From positions 1 to 29,720 of the IMG/VR virus record IMGVR_UViG_3300025127_000174: DNA of 29,720 bases. One strand, 5' to 3'. Positions 64 to 28,789 of this stretch are shown here, in pieces. This stretch comes from a virus. Each line of letters opens with the position of its first letter. Within the stretch, counting starts at the first letter, position 1. The position numbers were made by a program, and so were the translations under genes. The notes beneath the pieces are model-generated. The model saw only the letters and a program-made list of their open reading frames with translations, was not told the DNA's origin and ran no database searches.

Positions 64-91
64 TTGACAATTCTATATATATGCGTATATG
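64..91 (+). promoter_or_regulatory. Sigma70-like promoter of the helicase gene
   Basis: A perfect TTGACA (64-69) is followed after 16 nt by TATATG (86-91), a fair -10 hexamer. Transcription would start near 97-100, leaving a very short leader before the ribosome binding site AGAGG (104-108) and the ATG at 114. The in-frame ATG at 81 lies inside this promoter, so it cannot be the start of a message made from it. Reading the other strand, TTGTCA (70-65) overlaps the same -35 box, but its possible -10 is poor. Confidence 0.6.
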
Positions 92-113
92 TTCTTATAG
101 TCAAGAGGTAAAA

Positions 114-1562
114 ATGAAAAAATATAATTTTAAAACGAAACCCTTCGATCATCAGATGAAAGCGCTCCGTGATTCGTGGGACGCAAAGTATTATGCACTA
201 TTTATGGAGATGGGTACAGGTAAATCGAAAGTAGCTATAGACACTATGGGAGCCCTGTATACAGAGGGTAAAATAAACGCAGCTCTAATTATATCACCTA
301 AGGGTGTATATGATAACTGGGTGCAAGGCGAGATACCCACACATCTGTCCGATGACATCAAAATCAACATGGTGCGATGGCAACCATCCAGTGCGCAGTG
401 GTTCCAGAAACAAATGAAAACGTTGGTGTATGAAAAGTTTGATGGGCTCAAGATATTTGTTATGAACACCGAAGCATTGTCCACGCCTCGTGGTACACAA
501 GCGGCTCATACGTTTCTTGAAGCTAACGATGAGAATATAGTTATAGTGGACGAAAGCACCACTATAAAGAATAGAACAGCCAACCGTACAAAGAATATAT
601 TAGAGATGAAAGGTATGTCTAAGTACAGACGCATACTGACAGGGTCACCCGTGACCCGTAGTCCGATGGATTTGTTTAGTCAATGTATGTTTTTGTCGGC
701 TTTGGCATTGAACTTTCAAAGTTTTTATGCGTTTCAAAACCGCTATGCTGTAGTACAGAAGCGTGTCATGGGACCGCGATCCTTCAATGAAGTGGTAGGA
801 TATAGACGATTAGATGAGCTGAATGATAAGCTTGAAGCTTTTAGTAATCGTGTGTTGAAAGAAGATTGTCTGGACCTGCCAGATAAAATGTATGTGCGCC
901 GTCTTGTTCCGTTGTCCGAGGAGCAAAAGCGATCATACACGGAGATGAAACGTTTAGCCCTTACCAAGCTTGACAATGGCGAACTCGCCACGACACAGAG
1001 CGTGCTGACACAGATCATGCGTCTGCAACAGATATGCTGTGGTCACATACAAGATGATGAGGGTAATACAGTGAACTTCACACATGGGCGTTTGAAAGAA
1101 CTGCTCGATATATGTGAGGAAGTACAGGGAAAAGCTATCATTTGGGCGACATATACCTACGACATCCAACAGATAGCGAATGCCCTGCGCGACCGCTTTG
1201 GGCCCGATGCGGTCGCAACCTATTATGGTGAAACCCCACAAGAGGAGCGTCAAGAGATTGTTGAGCGTTATCAAGACCTTGAAGATCCCCTACGCTTCTT
1301 TGTGGGACAACCAAGAACGGGCGGGTATGGTATTACTCTTACTGCCGCAAGCACTGTTATCTACTACAGCAATAGTTATGACTTAGAGATACGCTTGCAG
1401 TCTGAAGATAGGGCGCATCGTATTGGTCAGACCAATAAAGTAACCTATGTGGATATCATTGCCCCAGAAACTATAGATGAGAAGATACTACAGGCCCTGA
1501 GAGAAAAGATAAACCTTGCGCAACAAGTGTTGGGCGAAGATGCTAGGACTTGGCTTTCTTAG
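114..1562 (+). CDS. SNF2-family DNA helicase/translocase
   Basis: A superfamily 2 ATPase of the SNF2 branch, 482 aa with the ATG at 114, chosen because AGAGG sits just upstream and the earlier in-frame ATG (81) lies in the promoter. Motifs seen in order: Q-like PFDHQ near 10-14, Walker A MGTGKS near 33-38, motif II VDEST near 145-149, motif III LTGSP near 175-179, and a C-terminal lobe with RTGGYGITLT and QSEDRAHRIGQ near 429-439, the SNF2 signature. Motif II is DEST rather than DEAH, a variant I associate with phage members. No extra domains fit in this length. Known for the family: ATP-driven translocation along duplex DNA. Inferred roles are replication, recombination or transcription support in the infected cell. 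It is the only plus-strand gene here and is convergent with the late operon, so it probably belongs to an early or middle transcription unit. Confidence 0.93.
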   Translation: MKKYNFKTKPFDHQMKALRDSWDAKYYALFMEMGTGKSKVAIDTMGALYTEGKINAALIISPKGVYDNWVQGEIPTHLSDDIKINMVRWQPSSAQWFQKQMKTLVYEKFDGLKIFVMNTEALSTPRGTQAAHTFLEANDENIVIVDESTTIKNRTANRTKNILEMKGMSKYRRILTGSPVTRSPMDLFSQCMFLSALALNFQSFYAFQNRYAVVQKRVMGPRSFNEVVGYRRLDELNDKLEAFSNRVLKEDCLDLPDKMYVRRLVPLSEEQKRSYTEMKRLALTKLDNGELATTQSVLTQIMRLQQICCGHIQDDEGNTVNFTHGRLKELLDICEEVQGKAIIWATYTYDIQQIANALRDRFGPDAVATYYGETPQEERQEIVERYQDLEDPLRFFVGQPRTGGYGITLTAASTVIYYSNSYDLEIRLQSEDRAHRIGQTNKVTYVDIIAPETIDEKILQALREKINLAQQVLGEDARTWLS

Positions 1563-11346: not shown

Positions 11347-11649
11347 CTATCCTATTGTTACTGTTACTGATCCTAACCCACTTGTGGCAGAATTACTAGC
11401 GCAATGTGGTCGGTCCACCTTACTTATCTTAATAAATCCGTCAACTTCAAACAAGGCGCCGTTCTCTAAATCTTTGTCATTACCTGACGGTAAGTTCGTA
11501 AAAGTAAGTTTTGTGGCTCGTGATTCGCCGGGATTGCGCTGTTGTTCTACAAACAAAGCAAACGATCTTACTATGTCAGAGAAGTAGCTCGGGTCATATT
11601 GCTGTGGCGGATAAGGAAAAAACGGGGCCGGTATATTACGTGTGCTCAT
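11347..11649 (-). CDS. Small virion-associated protein, unknown
   Basis: A 100-aa product starting MSTRNIPAPFFPYPPQQY, with a Pro/Tyr/Phe-rich N-terminus, a helix near 22-38 and a beta-type C-terminal half (NGALFEVDGFIKISKVDR) ending GLGSVTVTIG. The start is a TAATG junction with the nozzle gene. I recall similar small proteins next to nozzle genes in marine phage contigs, but know no function. The beta-rich tail and position suggest a minor tail or neck accessory protein. Confidence 0.75.
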   Translation of the reverse strand: MSTRNIPAPFFPYPPQQYDPSYFSDIVRSFALFVEQQRNPGESRATKLTFTNLPSGNDKDLENGALFEVDGFIKISKVDRPHCASNSATSGLGSVTVTIG

Positions 11650-13985
11650 TATCTTCGTCCATCTGGTCTTACATCAAGTCTCGGTGTGCCTAGCCTCCAC
11701 ATAACGCCAGTAACGTCACTTTCAACCCGAAAGGCAAAAGATCGACCGCGTAAACGCACATGAAGCTGCTCTGTAAACAACTCTACAGGTGTTGATACAG
11801 ATTGTGCTACCTGATTACTTGATGTTTCGTTAAACGTGACCCCCGGAAAATTACGTGTCTTTACTACCATATTGACCCGTGGTGTCTCATTTGTACTGTC
11901 TCTAAAGGTGATGTCGGGCAGAACACGCCGTACTAGAGTGAATTTATCGCCATCGCCTATGTCCATTTGGCTTGACTCGACGTTGGCAGAGATAGCAGAA
12001 GGAGGATTAGTGCTGCCATCGTCCTGCCCGAACTCGTGGTAATATAATTTATTATCTGTGCTTGCGGCTATTGGATATTGGTTAATACCCCTATCCACCC
12101 ATGCTGTACGCTCTAAAGTGCCAAAGTACCATATCTTCTCCTGATAATTATATATAACATAGCGGTCATTAGTTGTGCTGCTCTTGGATGGATAGAACCA
12201 CCATACTTCACCATAAGAACTATTGTGACCCGAATATACCTTACCTATCTGGTCCCGGTTAAAATCACTAAAGACATAATCCAACACAGTGCAGGGTAAT
12301 CGTTGCACCGTACCACCGTATACATAGAACTCTTTGGAGCCCATCCAGAATACAAAGTCATTCACGGCAACGGCTGCGTTTGGACTTGCTATTGTAATAT
12401 TTCGTGATATCTCGGTTAGACCAAAAGTAAAGGGTGGCCCCAAGAACTGCATACCGTGGAGGGAGACATCTGTAAATACCAGTATTTGTTGCTTGGTTTG
12501 TATGGCCACCACAATCTCCGAACCCGTAGATATTCGAAGCTCTCCCGCTGTGTTTGTGGGGGATGTCTGAAAATCAAGTAAACTTTCCTGTGATCCAAAG
12601 CGTATAAGCAGTGGGTCCTGTGTCCCGATAGATGTCTCGCCGTCACAACCAAACGCTATAACATGACGGTCTTGGTCCGATACCATTATTTGTTTAGCAA
12701 CCGTTGGGGCTAGATTAGACCCGGACAACGATGAAAGGGCCACGGCCCGTGATGAGGTGCCCGAGGTCCGATCCCAATAAAATATACCGCCATTCTTAAT
12801 ATTTAACAGCAGGTCCTCGCCAAAGTTATCGTGTGTCCAGTTTGTTAACACAGCACCCGATACCGTTCCCTCTGCCGGCATACCCCAACCAAAAGCAGCT
12901 TCTATTACAGCATCATTATCAGAATGTGTTGTCGCTGTGGTGCTAAGTGAACCGCGTATTAATCCTGTAAATGTGGTGGATGTTGTGCCTGTGTACTCAA
13001 TAATTTCGTCATTTATCTTAATATAGCCTGAAGAGGCAAAGTTTGCCGCTGAGTCTACCGTCACTGTAGTAGCTGTTGCCGATAAGCCACTACCATCATT
13101 TATTAAAGTTACGGTGTCGTCGGCTGCTGTTGCATTGCCCAAGACCAGTCGTACAAGCTCGCCACTGGAATGAACCGCCGCTGTTGTACCGCCATGTCCT
13201 CGTGTCACAGTCAGTGTATTACTTGATATACCGCTTACCAACATAAGCTCACCACCAACATCTATTACATCAGAGGTAGAGATACCCGTCGCACTTGCTA
13301 CATCAACCCCTGTTTCAGAGACGTCAAGATCTTCTGCTATAGTTGTAGTCAATTCGTCCGTATCCACACCATTCCACACACCGGCACCCCAACCTGTGCC
13401 AAAGAAGTTTGTATCGAGGCCCGTGTTTACTTGATAAGCGCCCACGGCGGAGCTGCCACCGTTCCCAGAATCAGAGCTATTAGCCGTTACACTTACGGTA
13501 ATAGTGTAAATATTATTGTTTGTAACAGAGGTTACTTGATGTTCTGCGTTTAATATTGCGGCGGTAACGTTGCCCCCCAAGGATGCCGCTCCTGAAAAGG
13601 TAACAAAGTCGTTTAGCACGGCACCGTGTGCCGCATCTGTAACTGTAATAACAGAACTACCGTTTGTTGCCGCAAAGGTTACATCACCGGCCCCTGTTGT
13701 GTTACGAATAGGGGTTATATCATTATACTGACCACCATCGGCAATGTAGTATTTAAGGTTTGTGCCTATACCTAAATATTTTGTAGCATCCAAGGCCACC
13801 CAACTAAATAAAGCACGACAGGTGCCCAAGAACGTATTGTCACTGTAGGTAGACCACCCGCCTATCTTTTCTACATTACCAAACCGAAAGCGTATCTTAT
13901 CGCCATTGAACCAACCGCCCTCGTTTGAATAGGACGTTGACTCTCTATTAATACCGGGTTTAAATTTAAGGGCAGTTAAAGGCAT
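11649..13985 (-). CDS. Tail nozzle / packaged-DNA stabilisation protein (P22 gp10-like)
   Basis: A 778-aa protein. The N-terminus (ALKFKPGINRESTSYSNEGG then KIRFRFGNVEKIGGW) is a pattern I recognise from podovirus tail proteins often annotated as packaged-DNA stabilisation protein or tail tubular protein B-like. The segments WTHDNFGEDLLLN (near 383-395) and FWMGSKEFYVYGG fit the repeated blades of a beta-propeller, as in P22 gp10 and T7 gp12. Inserted at about 226-278 and 305-362 are two divergent copies of an Ig-like/SH3-like bead (DVIDVGGELM / GYIKINDEIIEYTG ... TRGHGGTTAAVHSSGELV). Expected role: distal ring of the short tail, holding DNA in and anchoring fibres. The fibre genes directly upstream agree. 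Fold and role are inferred from motifs, so the exact equivalence is uncertain. Confidence 0.82.
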   Translation of the reverse strand: MPLTALKFKPGINRESTSYSNEGGWFNGDKIRFRFGNVEKIGGWSTYSDNTFLGTCRALFSWVALDATKYLGIGTNLKYYIADGGQYNDITPIRNTTGAGDVTFAATNGSSVITVTDAAHGAVLNDFVTFSGAASLGGNVTAAILNAEHQVTSVTNNNIYTITVSVTANSSDSGNGGSSAVGAYQVNTGLDTNFFGTGWGAGVWNGVDTDELTTTIAEDLDVSETGVDVASATGISTSDVIDVGGELMLVSGISSNTLTVTRGHGGTTAAVHSSGELVRLVLGNATAADDTVTLINDGSGLSATATTVTVDSAANFASSGYIKINDEIIEYTGTTSTTFTGLIRGSLSTTATTHSDNDAVIEAAFGWGMPAEGTVSGAVLTNWTHDNFGEDLLLNIKNGGIFYWDRTSGTSSRAVALSSLSGSNLAPTVAKQIMVSDQDRHVIAFGCDGETSIGTQDPLLIRFGSQESLLDFQTSPTNTAGELRISTGSEIVVAIQTKQQILVFTDVSLHGMQFLGPPFTFGLTEISRNITIASPNAAVAVNDFVFWMGSKEFYVYGGTVQRLPCTVLDYVFSDFNRDQIGKVYSGHNSSYGEVWWFYPSKSSTTNDRYVIYNYQEKIWYFGTLERTAWVDRGINQYPIAASTDNKLYYHEFGQDDGSTNPPSAISANVESSQMDIGDGDKFTLVRRVLPDITFRDSTNETPRVNMVVKTRNFPGVTFNETSSNQVAQSVSTPVELFTEQLHVRLRGRSFAFRVESDVTGVMWRLGTPRLDVRPDGRR
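12900..13310 (-). repeat. Two divergent bead-domain repeats in the nozzle protein
   Basis: Residues about 226-278 (13152-13310) and 305-362 (12900-13073) share the order: T-V-D-V-x-S-A, then a strand with I-x-x-G/N-x-E-x-(M/I)-x-V/Y, then T-(V/G)-x-R-G and T-T-A-x-x-H-S-x-x-x-x-V. This looks like an ancient tandem duplication within the protein and probably forms beads projecting from the propeller. Confidence 0.6.
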
Positions 13986-15778: not shown

Positions 15779-16840
15779 TTATAACTCAGCATCTGCTGAC
15801 ATTGCACACTGAAATGAATAAGGTGAAGCAACACCAGTGATGTGAAAGCCGTGTTTTGAAATTCTTGAATATGAAACAGCATCATTGCCCACACCATCAG
15901 TGTCCGTATAACCTGCATTATTTGGATATCCACCAACACCATAAGTAGAAACAGTTGGGTCTGTTCTTTTTTGCGTGTGAAAAGGCAACCAAGCTTTATA
16001 AAGATTGTTGTATCCTGATGCAGGATGAGCGCTAAATGAATCTACATCTGACCATATTTCAAGATATCTTTGACATTTTCGAAGCGTCACATCAAAAGGC
16101 TCACTCTCAAATTCTGTTGGGTTCTGCCCTACTTCTAACTGACAGCCAGTCAAAAACCATTCATTATCAGTACTACTCATAATATTGACATTACTTGAAC
16201 TTACTTTGTTTGCCGCTGTTTCACTTTGCCAAGAACCTGTTCCAAGAGTCCCACTTGTGTAAGAAGAGCCTGCCGCTAACCACCATGATATTTCTAGTCC
16301 TGCTCCATTGTCATCATTAAAACCAGATGCTGTGTCACCTTGTATAGTTATCTTTTTTTGTTCCCATGTGTTAGCTGAGTCTATTGTGTAAGTGGCAGAC
16401 TGGTGTTTACTAGCGTCACTATTGTAGAACAATACTGTATATGTTCCTGTTACATTGCTTTTAACATAAAATGAAAGCGTTATGGGTTTCGCTTCAGATG
16501 TTCCATATTGCAAAATTTGACAATTTTGTGCTTCAATTATTTGATGGGGAAAGACTCTTTGAGCAGAACTTAGAGATGTATCTGCTGTGGTAACATCTAA
16601 CTTGTAGCTATTAGCTAAACCAGAGCCAGTTGGAACAGAGCTATCTTGTGTTATTGTTACTGCTCCGTCTGTAGTTTCACTGATAGTCCATCTATCCAAA
16701 GTATATGCTGATGCTGTTGTGTGACTTGTTCCTCTTTGAGCAACTGCCATTGAGCCATTTATAAGCAAGTTTCTGTTTACTCCACCACCACCTGCATTGA
16801 TGTTGCCTATAAGGTTTGCTAAGTCTGATGCTTTGCTCAT
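15779..16840 (-). CDS. Tail fibre with lectin-like domain
   Basis: A 353-aa protein. It begins MSKASDLANLIGNINAGGGG, then NRNLLINGSMAVAQRGTS (near 22-39) and LDRWTI (near 48-53), the start of a widespread phage fibre module with a jelly-roll carbohydrate-binding-like fold. Strands include ITLSFYVKSNVTGTYTVLFY (near 118-137). The module ends with LEVGQNPTEFESEPFDV then LRKCQRYLEIW, matching the common 'E-x-R-x-x-x-x-E-x-x-x-CQRYY' boundary. A C-terminal tip of about 85 residues follows. The ATG overlaps the previous stop (ATGA) and its ribosome binding site is the GDLA codon run of the adhesin gene upstream. Expected to bind a surface glycan; receptor unknown. Confidence 0.83.
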   Translation of the reverse strand: MSKASDLANLIGNINAGGGGVNRNLLINGSMAVAQRGTSHTTASAYTLDRWTISETTDGAVTITQDSSVPTGSGLANSYKLDVTTADTSLSSAQRVFPHQIIEAQNCQILQYGTSEAKPITLSFYVKSNVTGTYTVLFYNSDASKHQSATYTIDSANTWEQKKITIQGDTASGFNDDNGAGLEISWWLAAGSSYTSGTLGTGSWQSETAANKVSSSNVNIMSSTDNEWFLTGCQLEVGQNPTEFESEPFDVTLRKCQRYLEIWSDVDSFSAHPASGYNNLYKAWLPFHTQKRTDPTVSTYGVGGYPNNAGYTDTDGVGNDAVSYSRISKHGFHITGVASPYSFQCAMSADAEL

Positions 16841-17262
16841 GCTAAATCTCCGTGTGCTGAACCCGTGGTTATTACAGTGTCTAAATTATTACCACTACCA
16901 TTTCCTCCTCGGCTCTCATGGTCATAATGAGTAGAAGCCAGACCACTATTTTGACTATCACCAAAGCCAATCGAACAAACCGTTCCGTTGTAAGTGCCGT
17001 CTGCTCCTTGTGTTAGTGCGTATTCCGAATCAGACATATTATTAGTATAAGCAACCCTATATTGACCAGTAGCATTGTCAGTAATACCAGAAACGTTCAA
17101 ACTATCTTTTATTGCAATAGTACCTGTCCCATCCATGTTAATCCAAACCTTACACAACCCCTGTTGCAGATTAGTCGTGGTGCTATTCCCTTCGCCTGTC
17201 ACAGCGATTGACCCTGCTGTAGTGACACCTGTTAATGTATTTATTTTAAGTGTTGATGCCAT
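16837..17262 (-). CDS. Short adhesin paralogue A (GDLA family)
   Basis: A 141-aa member of the five-protein family in this window. Residues 31-40 NLQQGLCKVW, 53-66 DSLNVSGITDNATG and Y81 align without gaps to paralogues B and C. From about residue 82 on the sequence is unique (Gly/Ser/Asn-rich, one Cys) up to the final GDLA. The K-V-W ... D-S-x-N-x-S-x-I-x-D-x-x-T-G core matches a widespread phage tail domain that I know only as a putative receptor-binding or fibre-tip module. Its own ribosome binding site, GGAG, lies in the last codons of the S74 fibre gene. It has no signal peptide or catalytic motif. Confidence 0.8.
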   Translation of the reverse strand: MASTLKINTLTGVTTAGSIAVTGEGNSTTTNLQQGLCKVWINMDGTGTIAIKDSLNVSGITDNATGQYRVAYTNNMSDSEYALTQGADGTYNGTVCSIGFGDSQNSGLASTHYDHESRGGNGSGNNLDTVITTGSAHGDLA

Positions 17263-18203
17263 TACTTAGACTCCAATGCTGTTACTTTGGCTTCAAGTGT
17301 TTCTATCTTTGTTACTGCTTCTTGTAGTGCTTTTGTGAGAAGTGGCACGAGTTTACTGTGGTCTATTGATTGTGGTTCTATGTTACCATTTTTGTCTACT
17401 GCATCTTTTTCGCCATTAACAGCTTCTGGCACAATACTTGAAACCTCATGGGCTAAAAAACCCTCCTGTGTTTTGTCTGACTCTACTTTAAAGTTAAAGC
17501 GTGAAGGTTTAAGTTGTTTTAATCTAGTGGTCGCATCCCATTCTGTAACTACATTTTCTTTAAGTCTATAATCTGAAGAAGTGGGAAAACTAGTGCTAGT
17601 ATTATTATGTTGAATACCTCCAACAAAAGAACCCCCTGTTGTTCTACACGCTATAGCAGTATTAGTACCACTCGCTCCTGTTGGCATAAAATTGATGCCA
17701 TTTACAGAACCAGAAGTTACACTTATTGATATACGTTCCGAACCACTGCCGTCAGTATGCGTTCCCGGTATCATAATAACACCAGAGCTTTTTATCCTCA
17801 TGCGTTCTGTGTCGGCTGTTGTAAATGTTAAAAAAGGATTTGTGTCACTTGAACCTCTAATCCCCCTAATTGCTGCTCCCCTTTTGTTTGTGCTTGAGTT
17901 TGCTGTATCAGTAAAATTAATTAACCCAAGTATTTCACCTTCTCCACCAGTACACTCAGACGCAAACACTATAGCTCCTCTTTCTGTACCTGCTGATTCT
18001 AATACCAACGTTTGACCGTCACTACCATCAACATATGTGCTTGGTGTTGTGCTATTTATTCCCACATTACCAGTCGCATCAATTATAGCTTTCTGGCTAC
18101 CTGCTATGTTAAACTTGATATTGTCATTAGTCGCAAGGTCAATACCTGAGTCATTATCTCCCCCTGCATTGACGATTGTATCTACTTTAATTTCGCTTGC
18201 CAT
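17262..18203 (-). CDS. Tail fibre with C-terminal Peptidase_S74 chaperone
   Basis: A 313-aa protein. The N-terminus (MASEIKVDTIVNAGGDNDSG then IDLATNDNIKFN) is a typical fibre shaft start. The beta-rich middle has strand repeats, including TTADTERMRIKSSGVIMIPG. From about residue 206 comes a Peptidase_S74 intramolecular chaperone: SSDYRLKENV with the likely nucleophile Ser210 and partner Lys215, GFLAHEVSSIVPEAV near 248-262, DHSKLVPLLTKALQEA near 281-296, and a short C-terminal coiled coil. In known members this domain drives trimerisation and then cleaves itself off before the serine. Expected mature fibre is about 209 residues. Starts at TAATG after adhesin B. Confidence 0.9.
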   Translation of the reverse strand: MASEIKVDTIVNAGGDNDSGIDLATNDNIKFNIAGSQKAIIDATGNVGINSTTPSTYVDGSDGQTLVLESAGTERGAIVFASECTGGEGEILGLINFTDTANSSTNKRGAAIRGIRGSSDTNPFLTFTTADTERMRIKSSGVIMIPGTHTDGSGSERISISVTSGSVNGINFMPTGASGTNTAIACRTTGGSFVGGIQHNNTSTSFPTSSDYRLKENVVTEWDATTRLKQLKPSRFNFKVESDKTQEGFLAHEVSSIVPEAVNGEKDAVDKNGNIEPQSIDHSKLVPLLTKALQEAVTKIETLEAKVTALESK

Positions 18204-18616
18204 TATGCTAAATCTCCTGCAATTAATGTATCATGATATTCAGGGTCAACAGCATTTCCATTTTCAAAAATTTGTAATTTTGCTTGGGCAGTAGTATGTG
18301 TGCCATCAGATTGTTGCAAAGGTGCATTACATCCAGAATCTGAAACTGTGTGTTGATGACCTGCAACTCCACAATAATTTTTATTTGAAAAACCATTTGT
18401 AAAAACTAATCTATAATCACCAGTGCCTTGATCACTTATAGAGGATGCGTTAAAACTGTCATAAAAAGAAGGAGTGCTTCTGCCATCTAAAACACTAAAA
18501 ACTTTTATTAACCCTTGCTGTAAATTAGTAGTCGCAGATGTACCTTCACCCAAGACATTTATACTGCCACCTGTGGTGCTACCTTTTAAATTATCTACTC
18601 TAAGTTCACTGGTCAT
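18203..18616 (-). CDS. Short adhesin paralogue B (GDLA family)
   Basis: A 137-aa protein aligned end to end over its first 81 residues with paralogue A: SINVLGEGTSATTNLQQGL near 18-36, DSFNASSISDQGTG near 53-66 and Tyr81. The C-terminal part (HQHTVSDSGCNAPLQ and onward) is unrelated to the other copies, with two His and a Cys, before the closing GDLA. The ATG overlaps the stop of the 154-aa gene (ATGA). It lies two genes from paralogue A, separated by the S74 fibre. The variable tip is the likely receptor contact, by inference. Confidence 0.8.
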   Translation of the reverse strand: MTSELRVDNLKGSTTGGSINVLGEGTSATTNLQQGLIKVFSVLDGRSTPSFYDSFNASSISDQGTGDYRLVFTNGFSNKNYCGVAGHQHTVSDSGCNAPLQQSDGTHTTAQAKLQIFENGNAVDPEYHDTLIAGDLA

Positions 18617-19077
18617 AATATTGTATAAAATCCATTAACTGTTAGCGTTGCTGATGCACCGACTGTAATAGGTCCTGCTGACAGTGCATTGGTTGTGCTA
18701 CTGATTGTTATGTCAGCACTAATAGTCTGACCATTGGTTCGTATAATACTATCATTACCTAAGAAGGGATAGCGTGTGTCTGACTCAGACTTGGTGTAGC
18801 TGTTGGCTATACTAAACGCATCATATACCACTATCTCGACAACATCGTTGACAGATGCACCTGTAACTAAAACCACTGTCGTGCCTGTTGTGGAGGTATA
18901 ATCTGTGGCAGGTTTGAGTAGTATACCATTCTGATAGACATCAACATACTCCCCATCTGCATATGTAAGCGTATTGGAATTAGCATCCGAGCCAGAGAAA
19001 GAGGTCTGCCCTGCTGTGGCTTGGTATATGAAGCGTGTTCTAACCCCTTGGTTGGGTGCTTTTCCTATGTATGGCAT
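18613..19077 (-). CDS. Fibre-attachment-type protein, MPYIG family
   Basis: A 154-aa protein starting MPYIGKAPNQGVRTRFIY. The segment TLTYADGEYVDVYQNGILL then PATDY (near 36-60) and VEIVVYDAFSIA (near 81-92) are hallmarks of a marine phage fibre domain I recognise, usually N-terminal in longer fibres. SYTKSESDTRY (near 93-103) is a typical trimeric fibre linker. The C-terminal 40 residues form a beta module (ITISSTTNALSAGPITVGAS...LTVNGFYTIL) that recurs in the 149-aa gene at 21956. A tail attachment or short-fibre role is inferred. Confidence 0.8.
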   Translation of the reverse strand: MPYIGKAPNQGVRTRFIYQATAGQTSFSGSDANSNTLTYADGEYVDVYQNGILLKPATDYTSTTGTTVVLVTGASVNDVVEIVVYDAFSIANSYTKSESDTRYPFLGNDSIIRTNGQTISADITISSTTNALSAGPITVGASATLTVNGFYTIL

Positions 19078-19080
19078 ATT

Positions 19081-19356
19081 TTAACCCTTTGCGTATTTGT
19101 CTTTGACTGCTTTGATAGTTTTTTTCCAACCATCAATGCCGTTGTGGTATAAATCATCTAATTGGTCTGCTGTTGATGGATAGGCTTCTGCTCTATCTCT
19201 TTTATACTTTACAGCTTCCCATTCTTTTTTTAGAGTAGCCATATGTTTTAATCTTTTTGTTTCATCATCATAATCTGACTGACCAAAGCGAGAAACTATT
19301 TCTTTCCAAACAGAGTGGTGTTCATCTTTCCATGTTTTTAATTCTAAAAATTTCAT
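19081..19356 (-). CDS. Small tail-fibre-assembly-like protein
   Basis: A 91-aa protein, mostly charged helix, with the signature RAEAYPSTADQLDDLYHNGI (near 55-74) and ending IKAVKDKYAKG. The element R-x-x-x-YPS-x-x-DQLD-x-x-YH is shared by many small phage proteins beside fibre genes, some classed as XkdW- or tail-fibre-chaperone-like. Such proteins are thought to help fold or attach fibres. I infer that role here from the motif and its position between fibre genes. The ribosome binding site is weak (AAGAAAG). Confidence 0.78.
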   Translation of the reverse strand: MKFLELKTWKDEHHSVWKEIVSRFGQSDYDDETKRLKHMATLKKEWEAVKYKRDRAEAYPSTADQLDDLYHNGIDGWKKTIKAVKDKYAKG

Positions 19357-19365
19357 GTTACTTTC

Positions 19366-19872
19366 TTATGCCAAACGGCAACCTCCCCATTGTGAGTGCG
19401 CCCTATAATACTCTGAGTCAGTAAGAGTAGCACAAACTGCCATCGTATCTCCACTTGTTAAAGGAATAACTATTGTTGCTGTTTGACTATGTTCATCGTC
19501 TGAATAAGCAACAGTAAAATGTCTTGAAGCTGACCTTTGAAAATCAACTTTTGCAGAATTTTTTAAAAAACCAAAGCAGTTACTGGTATCAGTATTATGT
19601 GTATATACAGCAAACCAAAACAAATATACACCCGTTGCAGGTGCAGTATATTTATAAGTTGATGTGTTATAATTACTACCTGTGTCAAAACTATCGCCAT
19701 CGGAATCGTTATCAAAAGCAAGTATGCCCTCATTAGCAACTACAGCCCACTGACTAAGGTCAGACCTAGCAGAAAATGCAGCACTTCCACTTGGAAGACC
19801 ACTTACAGTGCCAGTAAAGGCAAAGGTATCTGTTAAATTTACTCCCTCTGCTTGTACTTTAGTTAAAGCCAT
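19366..19872 (-). CDS. C1q-like jelly-roll adhesin
   Basis: A 168-aa protein. After a short fibre-type leader (MALTKVQAEGVNLTDTFAF then GTVSGLPSG) residues about 32-168 follow the C1q/TNF-like order: AFSARSD, a strand ending AFDNDSDGDSF, DTGSNYNTSTYKYTAP (the C1q 'N-x-x-x-x-x-Y-x-AP' core), TGVYLFWFAVYT, a middle with FLKNSAKVDFQR, then TATIVIPLTSGDTMAV, ending with a WGGCRLA strand in place of the usual F-x-G-x-L-L. C1q-like domains form trimeric heads and are used by phages and bacteria as adhesion modules. A receptor-binding head on a short fibre is therefore likely. The fold assignment rests on pattern only. Confidence 0.8.
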   Translation of the reverse strand: MALTKVQAEGVNLTDTFAFTGTVSGLPSGSAAFSARSDLSQWAVVANEGILAFDNDSDGDSFDTGSNYNTSTYKYTAPATGVYLFWFAVYTHNTDTSNCFGFLKNSAKVDFQRSASRHFTVAYSDDEHSQTATIVIPLTSGDTMAVCATLTDSEYYRAHSQWGGCRLA

Positions 19873-19881
19873 TTATTTACC

Positions 19882-20253
19882 TCATGCGTAAGGGCTGTCA
19901 CCCAATGTGCTTGTATCCCAAGCAGCTTTTAGTTTAGCTATTGTGTCTGCATCATCTATAGCTTTTGCAGCAGGAGCATCTCTCAATGCTTTCTTCTTGT
20001 TTACAGATGCTGTTTTAGCCGATGCGTCATCAGCTTCCAATGCTTTCATGTAGGTTACATCTTCAGCTTCTAACAAAGGCTTTCTGACTTCTCTGATCTT
20101 GTCTTTGAATATCTTCTTAGCTTCTATCATGTCTTCGGATATCACGGAGCCACTAAGCTTCCATGCGTTTCTAAAATGTCTGTCAGATGGCACAGTTGCA
20201 GTAGACGCATCTATGGTTGCCCCATCCTTATCTGTTATAAATGTTTTGGTCAT
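19882..20253 (-). CDS. Tail-fibre-assembly-like protein with RNAWK motif
   Basis: A 123-aa protein with the ATG at 20253, chosen over a longer in-frame start because GGAG sits 6 nt upstream and the longer version would reach into the preceding gene. Residues 21-35 read VPSDRHFRNAWKLSG, followed by a charged helix (DMIEAKKIFKDKIREVRKPL) and an Ala/Asp/Lys-rich tail ending WDTSTLGDSPYA. I recognise the P-x-D/S-R-x-F-R-x-AW plus helix layout from marine phage proteins near fibres, thought to act in fibre assembly. The preceding gene ends with a similar motif. Confidence 0.78.
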   Translation of the reverse strand: MTKTFITDKDGATIDASTATVPSDRHFRNAWKLSGSVISEDMIEAKKIFKDKIREVRKPLLEAEDVTYMKALEADDASAKTASVNKKKALRDAPAAKAIDDADTIAKLKAAWDTSTLGDSPYA

Positions 20254-20261
20254 CGTATCTC

Positions 20262-20720
20262 CTATGCCACTTGTTGATCTATTTTCCAAGCGTTACGCCA
20301 TGTTCGATGTGACGGTAACTGCTCCTTCTTTACTATAAGCAAACGCTTTCTATTTGCTTGCTCATAATCTTTCCACACTCTCTCAGGTATGTCTTTCATA
20401 ATCAAGTATTCTATTGCCTGTTCCTCTGTCATTGATTCTACTGGCTTTGTATTATGGAGTAAATACCCTCGTGTATGCTTTACAAAATCTGGTTGTGCTT
20501 CGTCCTTCTTGAGTTCCCAATACACCCACACAGGTGGTAGTATGCCACCATTCAATGCACACGCCATCCAATTAGGGTCAGGGTGTGTTATCTTTGCAGG
20601 TTCATCTAGGCTATCTGGGTCTTCCCATACAATGCAATATTCACTTCTGTATGGCTGTAGGTTTTGCTTTGCCCACCCTAGTCTATCCCATAAATGTGTT
20701 CCTTGAAATTCTGGTGTCAT
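20262..20720 (-). CDS. Fibre-region protein ending in an RNAWK motif
   Basis: A 152-aa soluble protein rich in Trp and Pro (WDRLGWAKQNLQPYRSEYCI near 11-30, PPVWVYWELKKDEAQPDF near 62-79). The C-terminal part has EEQAIEYLIMKDIPERVWKD followed by RKRLLIVKKEQLPSHRTWRN and AWKI. The final P-S-x-R-x-x-RNAWK matches residues 22-32 of the next gene's product. Its ATG overlaps the previous stop (ATGA) and uses the GDLA codon run of adhesin C as ribosome binding site. It is likely a fibre-assembly or accessory protein by motif and location; no enzymatic signature is seen. Confidence 0.75.
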   Translation of the reverse strand: MTPEFQGTHLWDRLGWAKQNLQPYRSEYCIVWEDPDSLDEPAKITHPDPNWMACALNGGILPPVWVYWELKKDEAQPDFVKHTRGYLLHNTKPVESMTEEQAIEYLIMKDIPERVWKDYEQANRKRLLIVKKEQLPSHRTWRNAWKIDQQVA

Positions 20721-21121
20721 GCTAAATCTCCTATTCCTGCAAAAGAGTTTTTGTCTACGTCAATCGTAGTTCCATCAGTCTCTCTAACTTGATACCCACA
20801 AGTAGTTGTTGCGTGTGTGTCTTGAGAGCAACAAACACCATATACATTATTTTCTCCTGACATATTACCTAAAGCAGAGTAAAATGCGTTACCCATCGCA
20901 TTTGTAAAGGTAACAGTAAAGTCCCCTGTGGCATTATCTGTTACACCAGAAACATTAAAAGAATCTCTTATAATGTTGTCAGTCTTACTATCCCATACAC
21001 CAGAATATTTAGCCAAACCCTGTTGCACATTCGTAGTGGTAATATTCCCTGCACCTGCAACAATAGTGATGCTGTTCTTTGCGTCTACTCCCTCTAGGGC
21101 ATTTGTTCTTAGTGTGCTCAT
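20717..21121 (-). CDS. Short adhesin paralogue C (GDLA family)
   Basis: A 134-aa protein from the ATG at 21121, which overlaps the previous stop (ATGA) and has GGAGA upstream; a longer reading with six extra residues is less likely. Conserved landmarks: TTTNVQQGLAK near 28-38, DSFNVSGVTDNATGDFTV near 53-70, FTNAM near 72-76, Tyr81. The unique tip (GNMSGENNVYGVCCSQDTH and onward) is the most Cys-rich of the family, with three Cys, and ends GIGDLA. Its GQ-for-GE change and GAGN segment make it the second most divergent copy in the N-terminal half. Confidence 0.8.
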   Translation of the reverse strand: MSTLRTNALEGVDAKNSITIVAGAGNITTTNVQQGLAKYSGVWDSKTDNIIRDSFNVSGVTDNATGDFTVTFTNAMGNAFYSALGNMSGENNVYGVCCSQDTHATTTCGYQVRETDGTTIDVDKNSFAGIGDLA

Positions 21122-21549
21122 GCCAAGTCTCCGTGACAACTCAATGATAAATAAGCATAGTCAGAAACACCACATGCTGTATCTGTATTGTAAATATTAA
21201 CTATTTGAACAGATGTAGTGAGAACTGTGTCATCTTGTAATGGTTGTATTTGATAACTTGCTGTTGTAACATCACTTGCATTTGCTGCTGCTCCTCCAGT
21301 TGTATATGCCTTGTTAGCACGAAAAGCATTAGTATGATTATGCGTTTGATTACCTGTTCCATTGTCTCCAACAGAGGAGACATTAAAACTGTCGTTTGTA
21401 GCAGTAGAGGAGGTTGCATTACTGTATGATATCCATGTTTTAGCCAACCCCTGCTGTAAGTTAGTAGTTGTAGAGTTACCCTCTCCTGTGACGGCAATAG
21501 ACCCTGCTGTTGATGTGCCTGTGAGTGTGTTTGTTTTGAGTGTTGCCAT
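21118..21549 (-). CDS. Short adhesin paralogue D (GDLA family)
   Basis: A 143-aa protein. Its first 35 residues are almost the same as paralogue A (TAGSIAVTGEGNSTTTNLQQ at 14-33, versus 15-34 in A), while the tips are unrelated, which suggests recent duplication or exchange of the N-terminal half. The core DSFNVSSVGDNGTG lies near 53-66. The tip contains His-Asn-His and a Tyr/Thr-rich segment with two Cys, ending CHGDLA. The start is a TAATG junction after paralogue E, with GGAGAC as ribosome binding site. Confidence 0.8.
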   Translation of the reverse strand: MATLKTNTLTGTSTAGSIAVTGEGNSTTTNLQQGLAKTWISYSNATSSTATNDSFNVSSVGDNGTGNQTHNHTNAFRANKAYTTGGAAANASDVTTASYQIQPLQDDTVLTTSVQIVNIYNTDTACGVSDYAYLSLSCHGDLA

Positions 21550-21959
21550 TATGCCAAGTCTCCAAACGCTACACTACCAAATTCGTTATCTGTATATGAT
21601 CCAGAATGGTAAGAATTTTGTTGCCATTTGGTTACAGTCAAAGCATCACACCAGTGCGTTAAGTCCGTTTGATTTTCAATATAAGAACATAAAACAGAAT
21701 AATTGGCATTAGCCATGTCATTTGCAATATTTATCTGCTGTTTACCTGTTCCTATATCAGTTATACCTGATGCGTTAAAACTATCACTCAAAGCCGTTCC
21801 ATCTACCGTTGAGTGCGCCCAAACTTTAGCCAACCCCTGTTGTAAGTTAGTCGTAGTAGCACTGCTCTCACCACGAACACTTACTTGACCAGAGCTATCC
21901 ACAGTCATACTTGTGGTATTATTTGTATGCTTTATATTTTGTACTAGGAGATTGCTCAT
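21549..21959 (-). CDS. Short adhesin paralogue E (GDLA family)
   Basis: A 136-aa protein and the most divergent N-terminus of the family: MSNLLVQNIKHTNNTTSMTV then SGQVSVRGESSATTTNLQQG, about seven residues longer than the others before the conserved NLQQGLAKVW (38-47) and DSFNASGITDIGTG (59-72). The tip includes HWCDALTVTKWQQNSYHSGS and ends FGDLA. Its ATG overlaps the stop of the 149-aa MPYIG gene (ATGA). In transcription order it is the first of three consecutive copies (E, D, C). Confidence 0.8.
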   Translation of the reverse strand: MSNLLVQNIKHTNNTTSMTVDSSGQVSVRGESSATTTNLQQGLAKVWAHSTVDGTALSDSFNASGITDIGTGKQQINIANDMANANYSVLCSYIENQTDLTHWCDALTVTKWQQNSYHSGSYTDNEFGSVAFGDLA

Positions 21960-22405
21960 AGTATTGCCACGTTCCCTCCAGAGTTAATCGTCAGTGTTAC
22001 ACCACTTGCTATGGTCAACGGACCTGTGACGTTAGCGTTTTCTGTAGCTTCTATCGTTGTGTTTACATCAAGTGTCTGAGCATTGGTTCTAAACATACCA
22101 CCATTTTTAAATGTGCCTTTGTTCTGTGTGGGTATTGTAATGCTTGTATCTGTTGCACCAAGATAAATTACAAAGATATTACCTGTGCCAGTTGATGGAG
22201 CTTCTGTAAACGTAAGGCTTGTACCATTGGGTACAGTAAATGCGTCTACACTCTCTTGTATTACACCGTCAACGCTTACTACGATGTCCTCTTGAGCAAC
22301 AGTTTGATTTAAGGTAAAGACCGTTGTAGAGTTATCTCCGTTAAACTCCTGCGTTGCAGGTCTTGATGAAAAACTAGAACCAACTTGACTACCAATATAT
22401 GGCAT
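21956..22405 (-). CDS. Fibre-attachment-type protein, second MPYIG copy
   Basis: A 149-aa protein starting MPYIGSQVGSSFSSRPATQE. The first 85 residues differ from the 154-aa MPYIG protein but have the same beta-type layout: FTLNQTVAQEDIVVSVDGVI near 30-49, then SLTFTEAPSTGTGNIFVIYL. The C-terminal ~45 residues (MFRTNAQTLDVNTTIEATEN, then VTGPLTIASGVTLTINSG) match the C-terminal module of the 154-aa protein (IIRTNGQTISADITISSTTN...). This makes it a mosaic: shared start and tail, different middle. A short fibre or attachment protein is inferred. Confidence 0.8.
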   Translation of the reverse strand: MPYIGSQVGSSFSSRPATQEFNGDNSTTVFTLNQTVAQEDIVVSVDGVIQESVDAFTVPNGTSLTFTEAPSTGTGNIFVIYLGATDTSITIPTQNKGTFKNGGMFRTNAQTLDVNTTIEATENANVTGPLTIASGVTLTINSGGNVAIL

Positions 22406-22750: not shown

Positions 22751-24199
22751 TTACAATGCTATCGCCATTGCTGTGGCAAAACCTTTAGAAGCTGAGTCTG
22801 CCGATGCGTAGGTTTTAACATCAGAGGCAGGAACAGATTTCATTGTACCACCATCATTAACGATTATACCATCACTGTCAGCTATAGTTATAGAACTACC
22901 TACAGACGTTCCACCGTCTAGTAAATTTATTTCCGTAGTCGTCGCTGTTACTCCGTCTAAAATATTTAACTCTGAAGCTGTAGATGTGACCCCGTCTAAA
23001 ATATTTAACTCTTCTGGTGTGGATGTGATCTGTGTGGTACTCGCTGCTGCAAGAACCGGCAAAGTTCCAGACTGGTTTGGCAGACTTATTGTTCTATCGG
23101 CTGTAGGATCAACTGTTGTTAATGTTGTCTCGTGATCGTTAGCTGTAGAACCCTCAAAAACTAAGGTGTTCTGAACATTTATAGTTGTACTATCTACCGT
23201 TGTGGTTGTGCCACTAACTGTAAGATTACCTGTAACTGTGAGATTATCGTTCACTGTTGTTTCTGAAGTCGTATGCCCTATAGATATCGCAGTCCCCGAT
23301 ATGCCTGTGCCTATCGCTACAGACTCACTACTATTCGCTGTATCAACTACAAGGTAATTATCTGACCCTTGCTTTATTGTGAACGCTGTAGCTGAGTTGT
23401 CGGACACCGCTACATTTATATCTGTCCCGTCTGGACTTATAGAGTCTACAGCTATATCACCTACATTTGTGATATTATTGTCACCAAAACTTACGTTATC
23501 GCCAAAGGTTTTATTTGTTAAGGTGGCAGTCGAGGCTGTTGATACTAAACGAGCATTACCCCCTGTACTGGGTAGAGTTAGTGTATTATTAGCACTCTCT
23601 GAGTGAGGGGCTGCCGTTACTATCTGACCATGACTATTGTTTTCGCAGTTAAACTGTATGGCTCCCTGATTGTCATTACCTTTGACCGTAACGTGTCCTG
23701 TTCCGTTTGGAGCTAACTCTAAGTCTGCATTTGATGTCGTTACGATGTCATTACCATTTAGGTCTAAATTACCACCAAGCTGTGGTGACGTATCGTTTAC
23801 TACATCAACACCTGTAAGAGATGCACCACTACCACTAAAGGCTGTAGCTGTTACTGTGCCCCCTATGGCAACATTATTACTACCATCCTCCACAACAATC
23901 TTGCTTGCAGGCACTGTGATAAACACATCTTTGGTTCCTGCACCAAAATCTACCAAATTATTACTGTTAGAACTCGCTATAACTGATCGTGCTAGTGTTG
24001 TGCCAGAGGATGTAAATGTTCCTAAACCAACCTCAAAGGCACCATTTGTATTGTCAACAATAGCATAATAGGTTGTATCAGAATTAGATAGATTAGCAGT
24101 AAAAGTTTCAAAATTCGTGACTGCACCGGCCAAGGTGATTGTGCCTGTGCCTGTTGTCGTTGTCGTTTCACGAACTCTATCTGCTATCACAAAGGCCAT
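22751..24199 (-). CDS. Long tail fibre protein with ELNILDGVT repeats
   Basis: A 482-aa protein starting MAFVIADRVRETTTTTGTGT then ITLAGAVTNFETF, an attachment-type N-terminus common in marine phage fibres. The shaft is Thr/Asn/Val-rich beta with LNGNDIVTTSNADLELAPNG and NVSFGDNNITNVGDI segments and NLTVTGNLTVSGTTTTVDST near 320-340. Three 13-residue ELNILDGVT-type repeats lie near 392-428, and the C-terminus is short and ends KGFATAMAIAL. It has no chaperone or catalytic domain. It is probably a main trimeric fibre, with the separate short adhesin genes just downstream as candidate tips or alternates (inference). Confidence 0.86.
   Translation of the reverse strand: MAFVIADRVRETTTTTGTGTITLAGAVTNFETFTANLSNSDTTYYAIVDNTNGAFEVGLGTFTSSGTTLARSVIASSNSNNLVDFGAGTKDVFITVPASKIVVEDGSNNVAIGGTVTATAFSGSGASLTGVDVVNDTSPQLGGNLDLNGNDIVTTSNADLELAPNGTGHVTVKGNDNQGAIQFNCENNSHGQIVTAAPHSESANNTLTLPSTGGNARLVSTASTATLTNKTFGDNVSFGDNNITNVGDIAVDSISPDGTDINVAVSDNSATAFTIKQGSDNYLVVDTANSSESVAIGTGISGTAISIGHTTSETTVNDNLTVTGNLTVSGTTTTVDSTTINVQNTLVFEGSTANDHETTLTTVDPTADRTISLPNQSGTLPVLAAASTTQITSTPEELNILDGVTSTASELNILDGVTATTTEINLLDGGTSVGSSITIADSDGIIVNDGGTMKSVPASDVKTYASADSASKGFATAMAIAL
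22916..23026 (-). repeat. ELNILDGVT coding repeats in the 482-aa fibre
   Basis: Three tandem units read EELNILDGVT, SELNILDGVT and TEINLLDGG at 13-residue spacing. The first two 39-nt units share a long identical stretch at the DNA level. The final unit is degenerate and ends the array. Confidence 0.8.
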
Positions 24200-27207: not shown

Positions 27208-27513
27208 TTATCTTGGGCCTTTTGTCTTCTTTGTTACGTTAAAACCTTTACCCGCTAAAAACTTTTTAGCTTTAGCAACTGTCATTCCTGCCATCGCTCC
27301 GGCACCTGCTCCCATGGCTGCTCCCGCCATTTTTGCCGGAGAGGCGGTCACTTTTCCACCCGGCTTAAATTTTTTCACAGCGCCACCTTTTTTCATCATC
27401 TTCTTAACGGCACCACCTTTTTTCATCATTCTTTTAACAGCACCACCTTTTTTCATCATTCTTTTAACAGCACCGCCTTTACGCTTCATTGCATATGTTT
27501 TCTTTTTTCTCAT
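27208..27513 (-). CDS. Lys/Gly repeat protein with small hydrophobic segment
   Basis: A 101-aa protein. The N-terminal half has four copies of a decapeptide KKGGAVKRMM or close variants (near 10-50), with net charge well above +20. Then come FKPGGKVTAS, a Gly/Ala/Met-rich helix (AGAAMGAGAGAMAGMTVA, near 62-79) and a basic tail. The repeats correspond to 30-nt DNA units. Very basic, small-residue-rich proteins in structural operons may bind packaged DNA or insert in membranes. Function unknown; expression is supported by the overlap-rich operon context and a normal ATG. Confidence 0.72.
   Translation of the reverse strand: MRKKKTYAMKRKGGAVKRMMKKGGAVKRMMKKGGAVKKMMKKGGAVKKFKPGGKVTASPAKMAGAAMGAGAGAMAGMTVAKAKKFLAGKGFNVTKKTKGPR
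27381..27470 (-). repeat. Three 30-bp tandem repeats, plus a partial copy
   Basis: Units at 27381-27410, 27411-27440 and 27441-27470, with a partial fourth beginning at 27471. Units two and three are identical; unit one differs at four positions. Each encodes ten residues (KKGGAVK-K/R-MM). Identical adjacent units imply recent duplication, so copy number probably varies between related phages. Confidence 0.9.
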
Positions 27514-27522
27514 AAGGTTCTC

Positions 27523-27819
27523 CTAAGTATACAAAGTTTTTTTACGCCTGTTAGACATCACTGCCCCACACCCTCGTGCGATAAATCGTTTACCTTTTAA
27601 ATTTACATCATCTTTTTCAACTTTACCACCTTTATCGTAGCCCAAAGGCAAACCTTGCAGTTTTTTTCCTGTGACAGTAAACGTGTCTCTAACGCGTCTG
27701 CTAACGTTTTTAAGAGGCATAGTTTTGTCTAAGAACTGAGAATAACTTATTCTTTTGGACGTATAGTCATCTATGGCTTTAATATATTTTCTTTCATCTG
27801 AATTATACGCTTGTCCCAT
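27523..27819 (-). CDS. Small basic protein with DKGGKV and ARGCGAVM motifs
   Basis: A 98-aa protein starting MGQAYNSDERKYIKAIDDYT, a helical N-terminal half, then LGYDKGGKVEKDDVNLKG (near 59-76) and the C-terminal block RFIARGCGAVMSNRRKKTLY (near 78-97). The C-terminal block is one I recognise from several unrelated small proteins in marine phages, where it seems to be a portable module. Starts at a TAATG junction. The single Cys is in ARGCG. Function unknown; virion or DNA association is a guess from the basic charge and location. Confidence 0.75.
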   Translation of the reverse strand: MGQAYNSDERKYIKAIDDYTSKRISYSQFLDKTMPLKNVSRRVRDTFTVTGKKLQGLPLGYDKGGKVEKDDVNLKGKRFIARGCGAVMSNRRKKTLYT

Positions 27820-28079
27820 TATCGAATATAACCTCCGTTACCAAGACGCACTACGGCTTGTTTTGTATTTTTAACTACTGTCTTGCCTTTTGCACCTGCA
27901 CGTTTTTTCTTTTTGGCCGTAGCTGCACGCTCTTTTTTACTTAAAGACTGCGCCTTGCTACGTGGTAAACATCTGTCTGGGTTCTTCTTATCTTTAGAGG
28001 TACCGCATTTACCTTTAATCTTGCCGTCCGTACCAATACGAACCCAGTCTTGCTTAAGCCATTTTTTAAGTTCACCCAT
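27819..28079 (-). CDS. Small basic Cys-containing phage protein
   Basis: An 86-aa protein: MGELKKWLKQDWVRIGTDGK, then GKCGTSKDKKNPDRCLPRSK (near 23-42) and SLSKKERAATAKKKKRA, ending LGNGGYIR. Two Cys twelve residues apart flank a GTSKDKKNPDR loop, a pattern I know from cyanophage and pelagiphage small basic proteins, possibly related to the DUF6321 group. A small zinc-binding or disulphide loop is conceivable but not shown. The ending NGGYI fits the x-GG-x-[V/I/A] motif found in neighbouring proteins. Confidence 0.78.
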   Translation of the reverse strand: MGELKKWLKQDWVRIGTDGKIKGKCGTSKDKKNPDRCLPRSKAQSLSKKERAATAKKKKRAGAKGKTVVKNTKQAVVRLGNGGYIR

Positions 28080-28327
28080 TATGTTTTCTTCTTTTTCTTT
28101 TTACCTTTTGCGCCTTTTGCGTAATTCGGATCTTTACAGTACTTACTTGCAGCAAGATTTGCATAAGCGCTTGGATATGTATCAAAGGTACGCTTTGCCC
28201 ATGCCTTACCTTCAGGACAAATCTTACCGCCCTTTTTCATTTTAACAACACCACCCTTAGCCATCTTTACTACAGGACACGCCCCGCGTCCTAGATTTAC
28301 TTTACTTCTTGATTGCGGCCTGCTCAT
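28079..28327 (-). CDS. Small basic protein with Cys and KGG motifs
   Basis: An 82-aa protein from the ATG at 28327, preferred over an upstream GTG (28336) because AAGGAG lies about 8 nt before the ATG and directly against the GTG. It reads MSRPQSRSKVNLGRGACPVV, then AKGGVVKMKKGGKICPEGKA (near 23-42), WAKRTFDTYPSAYANLAASK (near 43-62) and YCKDPNYAKG with a Lys tail. Three Cys. The 'YPSAYAN-x-x-AS-KYCKDP' block is shared by other marine phage small proteins as I recall. It overlaps the end of the membrane protein gene by 26 nt. Confidence 0.78.
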   Translation of the reverse strand: MSRPQSRSKVNLGRGACPVVKMAKGGVVKMKKGGKICPEGKAWAKRTFDTYPSAYANLAASKYCKDPNYAKGAKGKKKKKKT

Positions 28328-28508
28328 ATCTTGCACTCCTTTTAATAAAGTCTTCCCACAAAGGTTTTAACATTTCATTGTTTTGTTCAATCTTAACAGA
28401 CATAACGGCGGTGCGCTTATCCACACTAATCAGCGTCACAGTCATCCAAGTAATTGCACCCAAGGATAGCGTAGTAATACTACCAACTAATGCTTGCTTA
28501 ATTAACAT
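28302..28508 (-). CDS. Small single-pass membrane protein, holin-like candidate
   Basis: A 68-aa protein starting MLIKQALVGSITTLSLGAIT then WMTVTLISV (residues about 5-29 hydrophobic), followed by a charged, helical C-terminal half, VKIEQNNEMLKPLWEDFIKR. The ATG at 28508 is preferred because GGAG is 9 nt upstream; an ATG two codons earlier is closer than usual to it. One N-terminal membrane span plus a soluble helix fits a small holin, an envelope-docking protein or a virion membrane protein. No endolysin is visible in the window to support a lysis cassette. Confidence 0.68.
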   Translation of the reverse strand: MLIKQALVGSITTLSLGAITWMTVTLISVDKRTAVMSVKIEQNNEMLKPLWEDFIKRSARYEQAAIKK

Positions 28509-28789
28509 CGCCATCTTCTCCTTGCCTGCCGTAAACGACTATTTGGATTTTTAGCCGCCTTTGGAAACTTTTTCATCTGTCCGGCGCTTCGTGCACAAAA
28601 TGACTTACGCCTTGCTTTTTCTTTTGCTGTTAGGTTTTTCTTCTTTGTAACAGCAGTTTTTAATTTACTGCCCGGATTATCGCGTCTGTATTTAGCGACA
28701 CCGGCGGCAGTCATTCCCGCCCCAGACTTTGTGGAGCGGAAATACTTTTTAGTTTTAGGCGGTTGCTTATCTCGCCTACGTTTAGTCAT
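28502..28789 (-). CDS. Conserved basic 'SGAGMTAAG' phage protein (DUF6321-like)
   Basis: A 95-aa, strongly basic protein: MTKRRRDKQPPKTKKYFRST, SGAGMTAAGVAKYRRDNPGS (near 22-41), KLKTAVTKKKNLTAKEKARR, then KSFCARSAGQMKKFPKAAKN and SRLRQARRRWRC. This full-length pattern is familiar from T4-like cyanophages and other marine phages, where I believe it is assigned to a family of unknown function (DUF6321-like; the label is from memory). One internal Cys and a C-terminal Cys. A DNA-binding or virion role is inferred from charge and its place in the late operon. Confidence 0.82.
   Translation of the reverse strand: MTKRRRDKQPPKTKKYFRSTKSGAGMTAAGVAKYRRDNPGSKLKTAVTKKKNLTAKEKARRKSFCARSAGQMKKFPKAAKNPNSRLRQARRRWRC

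Follow-up and report, generated by a model that had tools for sequence, protein, structure and literature searches.

Recombination among tail-fibre genes is well known. In phages K1-5 and SP6, a short adaptor, gp37, holds two tailspikes via short conserved N-terminal peptides (PMC6872550, PMC6966330). In marine phages, the host-recognition genes of metaviromic islands (tail fiber, C1q) are hypervariable among related phages, with a conserved N terminus and a variable C terminus (PMC3909814). The stretch of DNA analyzed here in full, referred to as the window, is a 29,720-base virus record from IMG/VR, and it carries an array of short fibre genes.

An earlier note on this DNA had listed five short paralogues, here genes A to E. 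All five ORFs are present at the coordinates that it gave, on the minus strand, and the shared motifs, the Tyr, and the identical GDLA end were recovered in their alignment. A window-wide search identified these five members of the GDLA family and no others. The count of five falls short of the array itself, which has seven slots, slot 4 being occupied by a C1q head and slot 6 by an S74 protein (Table 1). In the order of transcription, adaptor alpha is followed by slots 1 to 3 (genes E, D, and C), two small proteins, and slot 4; adaptor beta, slots 5 to 7 (gene B, the S74 protein, and gene A), and a 353-aa fibre then complete the array. Dozens of IMG/VR contigs share this layout, as does HMO-2011, a cultured SAR116 phage. 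Multi-copy arrays, which had been taken for the unusual part of the locus, are thus usual among these phages, HMO-2011 included. In the common gene order, the closing fibre starts with MSKAAELA. Slot 4 of relatives carries GDLA or other heads. Pfam and PHROG searches with the 152-aa small protein returned no match; it is possibly a fibre-assembly helper.

Table 1. Features of the array in the window, listed in order of transcription
Feature	Coordinates	Strand	Description
Adaptor alpha, 149 aa, MPYIG...	21956..22405	-	Headless, T7-gp17-N-like, precedes slots 1-3; homologous to adaptor beta
Slot 1 (gene E)	21549..21959	-	Arm nt 21828-21959; GDLA head nt 21549-21827
Slot 2 (gene D)	21118..21549	-	Arm nt 21442-21549; GDLA head nt 21118-21441
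Slot 3 (gene C)	20717..21121	-	Arm nt 21011-21121; GDLA head nt 20717-21010
Small protein, 152 aa, TPEFQGTHLW...	20262..20720	-	Between slots 3 and 4; position conserved in relatives
Small protein, ∼120-135 aa, VPSDRHFRNAW...	19882..20289	-	PHROG 20196, unknown function, E = 1.6e−31; position conserved in relatives
Slot 4, arm MALTKV..., C1q-like head	19366..19872	-	Pfam C1q, E = 1.3e−5, 25.8 bits (cut-off 23.7)
Adaptor beta, 154 aa, MPYIGKAPNQGVRTRF...	18613..19077	-	Headless, precedes slots 5-7; Foldseek: podovirus fibre N-domains
Slot 5 (gene B)	18203..18616	-	Arm nt 18506-18616; GDLA head nt 18203-18505
Slot 6, arm MASEIKVDTIVNAGG..., Peptidase_S74 chaperone-ended fibre	17262..18203	-	Pfam S74, E = 8.3e−8, 32.9 bits (cut-off 22)
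Slot 7 (gene A)	16837..17262	-	Arm nt 17152-17262; GDLA head nt 16837-17151; AlphaFold2 head model
Closing fibre, 353 aa, MSKASDLANLIGNINAGGGG...	15779..16840	-	PHROG 4492 tail fiber, E = 1.7e−61; after slot 7 in relatives too

Alignment of genes A to E revealed 25 invariant columns; the motifs TTN.QQGL.K and DS.N.S...D..TG, the Tyr, and the GDLA end are among them. As all five genes matched PHROG 11355 (tail fiber) over most of each protein (E values, 1.2e−10 to 2.7e−18), the likeness within the family is not due to chance. Across 386 homologues, K38 (99%), D62 (100%), D128 (97%), and the GDLA end (99%) were retained; S54, N56, and G66 were also conserved, and signals of strands and turns in the C-terminal half were weak yet clear. 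The impression that the C-terminal halves are unrelated holds when the copies are compared in pairs, but not at the level of the 386 homologues, where D128, a conserved T-T-S turn, and the GDLA end are kept. AlphaFold2, run with 104 family members, predicted residues 1 to 36 to be without secondary structure and residues 37 to 137 to form one eight-strand beta domain (mean pLDDT, 78.7). Because residues 37 to 137 are placed together, the previously proposed constant half of ∼80 residues would end inside a single domain, and the border lies near residue 37 instead. In the predicted model, the constant half spans the arm and continues through the first half of the head, whereas the variable tip makes up the rest of the head.

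Folds like that of the GDLA head recur in phage fibre and spike proteins, but no close relative of solved structure was found. Searching PDB sequences with the GDLA profile gave nothing credible, a Pfam scan of the 104 members produced scattered single matches only, and Foldseek found nothing below 1e−3 in the PDB for the head. The best Foldseek match, the phiAB6 tailspike (E value, 0.058), was weak and was not used as family evidence. The PHROG annotation and the fold similarity suggest that GDLA heads bind receptors.

To compare the two parts of the protein, a nonredundant set of 196 GDLA proteins from six slots was used, leaving out 20 of the 261 GDLA slot proteins in which arm and head were not separable. 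The nearest arm from another locus came from the same slot for 191 of the 196 proteins (shuffles: mean, 35.1; maximum, 58), whereas the nearest head did so for 45, a value reached by 123 of 2000 shuffles (34.9 ± 6.2). An earlier, overlapping cut scored by triplet position had given 209/228 for arms and 97/228 and 99/228 for two parts of the head. With near-identical arms excluded, the first 14 residues pointed to the right slot for 49 of 56 proteins of trio beta and 31 of 41 of trio alpha; slots 1 to 3 separate less sharply than slots 5 to 7 under this exclusion. Since arms and adaptors co-vary by lineage, the arm signal partly reflects shared descent. Same-slot pairs with an arm identity of at least 85% had a median head identity of ∼0.34 to 0.37, against 0.33 in unrelated pairs. 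The DNA of slots 2, 3, 5, and 7 was 90 to 100% identical to that of same-lineage relatives over the first 90 nt and then ∼60% identical until the last codons; slot 5 of contig L178 had a divergent arm, and in slot 1 the high identity was confined to the first 30 nt. Overall, the N-terminal ∼37 aa form a slot-specific arm in the six proteins that stand in two sets of three, and the rest of the protein is one beta-domain head without slot memory.

Heads have been swapped between viruses and even between slots. Four kinds of head were found in the slots, the non-GDLA classes being told apart by their terminal residues and backed by Pfam in examples only. In 14 pairs, heads at least 80% identical occupied different slots. 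On a slot 2 arm in L183/L243 (one contig), a head shares 92% identity with that of gene E, and the DNA of the shared head is 87 to 100% identical. The gene E head was also found in slot 1 of L242, and other contigs have a related head in slot 2 and in slot 6. Heads shared across slots were 87 to 100% identical in DNA over most of their length. The slot 1 arm carried either a GDLA or a C1q head, and the slot 6 arm either a GDLA head (L040 and L099) or S74, which are unrelated folds. For nine pairs of moved heads, dN/dS was ∼0.08 to 0.28. Diversity therefore arises through the exchange of cassettes, and a head, once in existence, is conserved. A diversity-generating retroelement was considered and rejected, as no template/variable repeat pair lies near the genes; direct repeats in the array region were at most ∼78% alike over at least 24 nt and matched the shared protein motifs.

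These data also bear on whether the genes arose by ordinary tandem duplication, with the tips then diverging fast under positive selection and no exchange taking place. The copies are homologous and clustered, and the arms of A and D are alike in protein sequence, from which the earlier note had derived a duplication followed by tip replacement. That derivation is not borne out by the DNA, in which A and D were 73/77/67/57% identical over the first 120 nt and only ∼72% identical over the first 90 nt. For each of the two, the corresponding slot of other phages holds an arm with 90 to 100% DNA identity over its first 90 nt, and A and D are therefore old separate slots rather than a recent duplicate. 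Near-identical heads on different arms in different slots, purifying selection on the moved heads, and the sharing of one arm by unrelated folds likewise count against divergence in place, which we regard as highly improbable. The suggestion of a repertoire of alternative receptor-binding tips encoded in one operon is supported, in that related phages vary in copy number and exchange tips, a check that the note itself had named.

An unfused adaptor beta was followed by exactly three genes before the closing fibre in 86 of 89 loci, counting ORFs of at least 100 aa. The exceptions were L071, with three genes of which the first was truncated to 81 aa, L051, and L174, in which the closing-fibre ORF was only 101 aa. 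Where the adaptor exceeded 200 aa and was fused to its own head, the trio was missing (7/7). Genes within a trio overlap, with spacings of −1 and −4 nt dominating, and trio beta of HMO-2011 contains an extra 81-aa gene. The slot tables omit sixteen alpha segments for which the counting rule yielded no clean set of four slot genes, mostly owing to inclusion of a small helper gene.

Neither adaptor carries a head. PF03906 (T7 gp17 N-terminal domain) matched alpha below the cut-off (E value, 0.002) and gave no match to beta; 17 of 37 adaptor family members were matched (best E value, 5.1e−6), and P0008 (adaptor) had no Pfam match. Foldseek placed the fibre N-domains of LME-1 (E value, 1.2e−4), HRP29, Kp7, P-SCSP1u, and T7 gp17 at the top of the matches to adaptor beta; E values of the adaptor matches ranged from 1e−4 to 1e−1, with modest TM-scores of 0.34 to 0.40. 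The adaptor model was moderately confident (pLDDT, 70; pTM, 0.45) and weak in its C-terminal part; Pfam gave no match to a T4 gp10-like D2/D3 docking domain in the 37 adaptors. Antibody light chains returned from the PDB by the adaptor profile were set aside as composition artefacts. In P-SCSP1u, the tail has six sites at which the T7-like fibre N-domain sits as a homotrimer (PMC10575957). The long fibres of pelagiphages and CRP-2 also contain adaptor-like domains in their interior, so that these domains are not confined to N termini, and a hub could possibly be part of a fibre instead of sitting at the tail.

We consider it likely that the locus encodes a fixed-slot array, in which each of two hubs would carry a set of three short receptor-binding proteins, all different, with their arms serving as addresses for docking. 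This reading draws on the slot layout, the arm specificity, the head exchange, the purifying selection on moved heads, and the complementarity of trios and fused adaptors, all shown by sequence comparison. The hubs would be the two headless adaptors, in both of which a T7-gp17-like fibre N-domain forms the core, a proposal based on the analogy with the K1-5/SP6 adaptor, with arms docking in place of the peptides. Each adaptor gene is followed by three overlapping, probably translationally coupled genes for short, putative receptor-binding proteins, with slot 4 sitting between the two trios. Each short protein has a ∼37-aa slot-specific arm, which would serve as its address, and a self-contained head, which would serve as its grip. 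By analogy, the arms may dock to their own adaptor or to neighboring arms. Recombination at two places, inside the arm and at the 3′ end that the genes share, would bring heads from a common pool into the slots, drawing on the same slot in other phages, on other slots, and on heads of unrelated fold. The heads would then bind receptors on the host surface.

Alternatively, each trio could make up one hetero-trimeric fibre of three distinct chains, each from its own slot, with a 1:1:1 stem on a trimeric adaptor, arms that recognize each other, and three different heads at the tip. Exactly three genes accompany each adaptor, whose fold is trimeric in T7-like phages; the gene overlaps suggest matched expression, the arms are slot-specific, and one head-fused adaptor takes the place of a whole trio. 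However, unrelated head folds mix freely within a trio (GDLA, S74, and GDLA in the window), S74 and C1q heads act as homotrimers in other systems, and homotrimers are the known form of phage tail fibres. Because folds mix within a trio and S74 and C1q heads are homotrimeric, the heads must fold independently, and we consider a hetero-trimeric fibre unlikely. Under the fixed-slot array, each head would instead form a separate homo-oligomer, likely a trimer given that C1q and S74 heads are known as trimers.

Relatives of the window differ in what they carry at the array site. L095 (98% identity in the 778-aa tail protein) has all seven slots, none with a GDLA head; L089 (99% identity) has two adaptors fused to S74-type fibres; and in L104 (81% identity) a single 1,356-aa fibre replaces the array. 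The last arrangement, together with the conserved gene order, would fit copies that serve as structural segments in series along one long fibre, like gp34-gp35-gp36-gp37 of T4, rather than as alternative receptor binders. In such a fibre, each arm would have to recognize the preceding head, yet heads of differing folds and the constant GDLA end interchange between positions, and domains similar in fold to the head are part of phage fibre and spike proteins. We therefore hold a serial fibre to be very unlikely.

If the seven addressable sockets with interchangeable heads are real, host range would become a combination of cassettes readable from sequence, and the arm sequence would tell the location of any unknown head. 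One virus could present many exchangeable grips to its bacterial host. The arms would also supply orthogonal docking peptides of natural origin, and the array a clear place to ask how receptor specificity changes without remaking the tail. Should the trios instead be hetero-trimeric, the virion would bear two combinatorial three-headed tips with heads from a shared pool.

For this phage group, the literature searched, which covered few subscription journals, yielded no description of slots that are fixed, arms specific to them, trios of genes per adaptor, or heads that cross slots. The study of metaviromic islands (PMC3909814) addresses how long fibres and C1q genes vary in populations, not fixed slots, address arms, or head movement between slots. 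Puniceispirillum phage HMO-2011, a cultured relative, has the same layout, adaptors, and five GDLA proteins in its tail-fiber cluster (gp28-gp41), the genes of which are annotated only as separate tail fiber proteins; unlike in the window, its slot 2 carries an EIAG head and its slot 6 a C1q head. As in K1-5, K1E, and SP6 (gp37 with gp46 and gp47), an adaptor without a receptor-binding domain of its own is found together with several proteins that have conserved short N termini and unrelated C termini. In contrast to those phages, there are three proteins per adaptor and two adaptors rather than two proteins on one, the arms are ∼37 aa rather than 7 and 11 aa, the heads are small beta domains that move between slots rather than enzymatic spikes, and a T4 gp10-like domain is not recognized in the adaptors. 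The Ackermannviridae (TSP1-4 of CBA120) and G7C likewise have several receptor-binding proteins per site, with conserved N termini and exchanged C termini. In CBA120 and G7C, however, the spikes themselves contain the T4 gp10-like domains at which branching occurs, whereas the proposed hub of the present array is a separate headless protein and the array proteins measure 130 to 310 aa.

At the left end of the window, the only large plus-strand gene is oriented towards the virion genes, and its product, judging from motifs recognized by eye, is apparently an SNF2/DEAD-like helicase. The small, very basic proteins, one of which (27208-27513) consists mostly of MMKKGGAVK repeats, are possibly packaged or DNA binding.

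Features of the window and their coordinates
Feature	Position	Strand	Location
Only large plus-strand gene	81-1562	+	left end
778-aa tail protein	11649-13985	-	
Pair of small proteins (TPEFQGTHLW type and VPSDRHFRNAW type)	19882-20720	-	
Run of small, very basic proteins	27208-28789	-	

Proteins of the TPEFQGTHLW and VPSDRHFRNAW types, which may be fibre-assembly chaperones, also lie between slots 3 and 4 of the receptor-binding array in relatives. Tail-fiber and baseplate PHROGs matched residues ∼298 to 360 of the 778-aa tail protein, the length of which varies among relatives. One relative, the L089 contig, carries a 99% identical tail protein, and at L089:3047-6171 the arrangement of an adaptor (a short, headless T7 gp17-N-like protein) followed by a trio of short slot genes gives way to two adaptors fused to Peptidase_S74-type fibres (402 and 638 aa). 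In a second relative, L104 (tail protein identity, 81%), one 1,356-aa fibre replaces the whole array (L104:3569-7639), and its N-terminus is common to the product of window 22751-24199.
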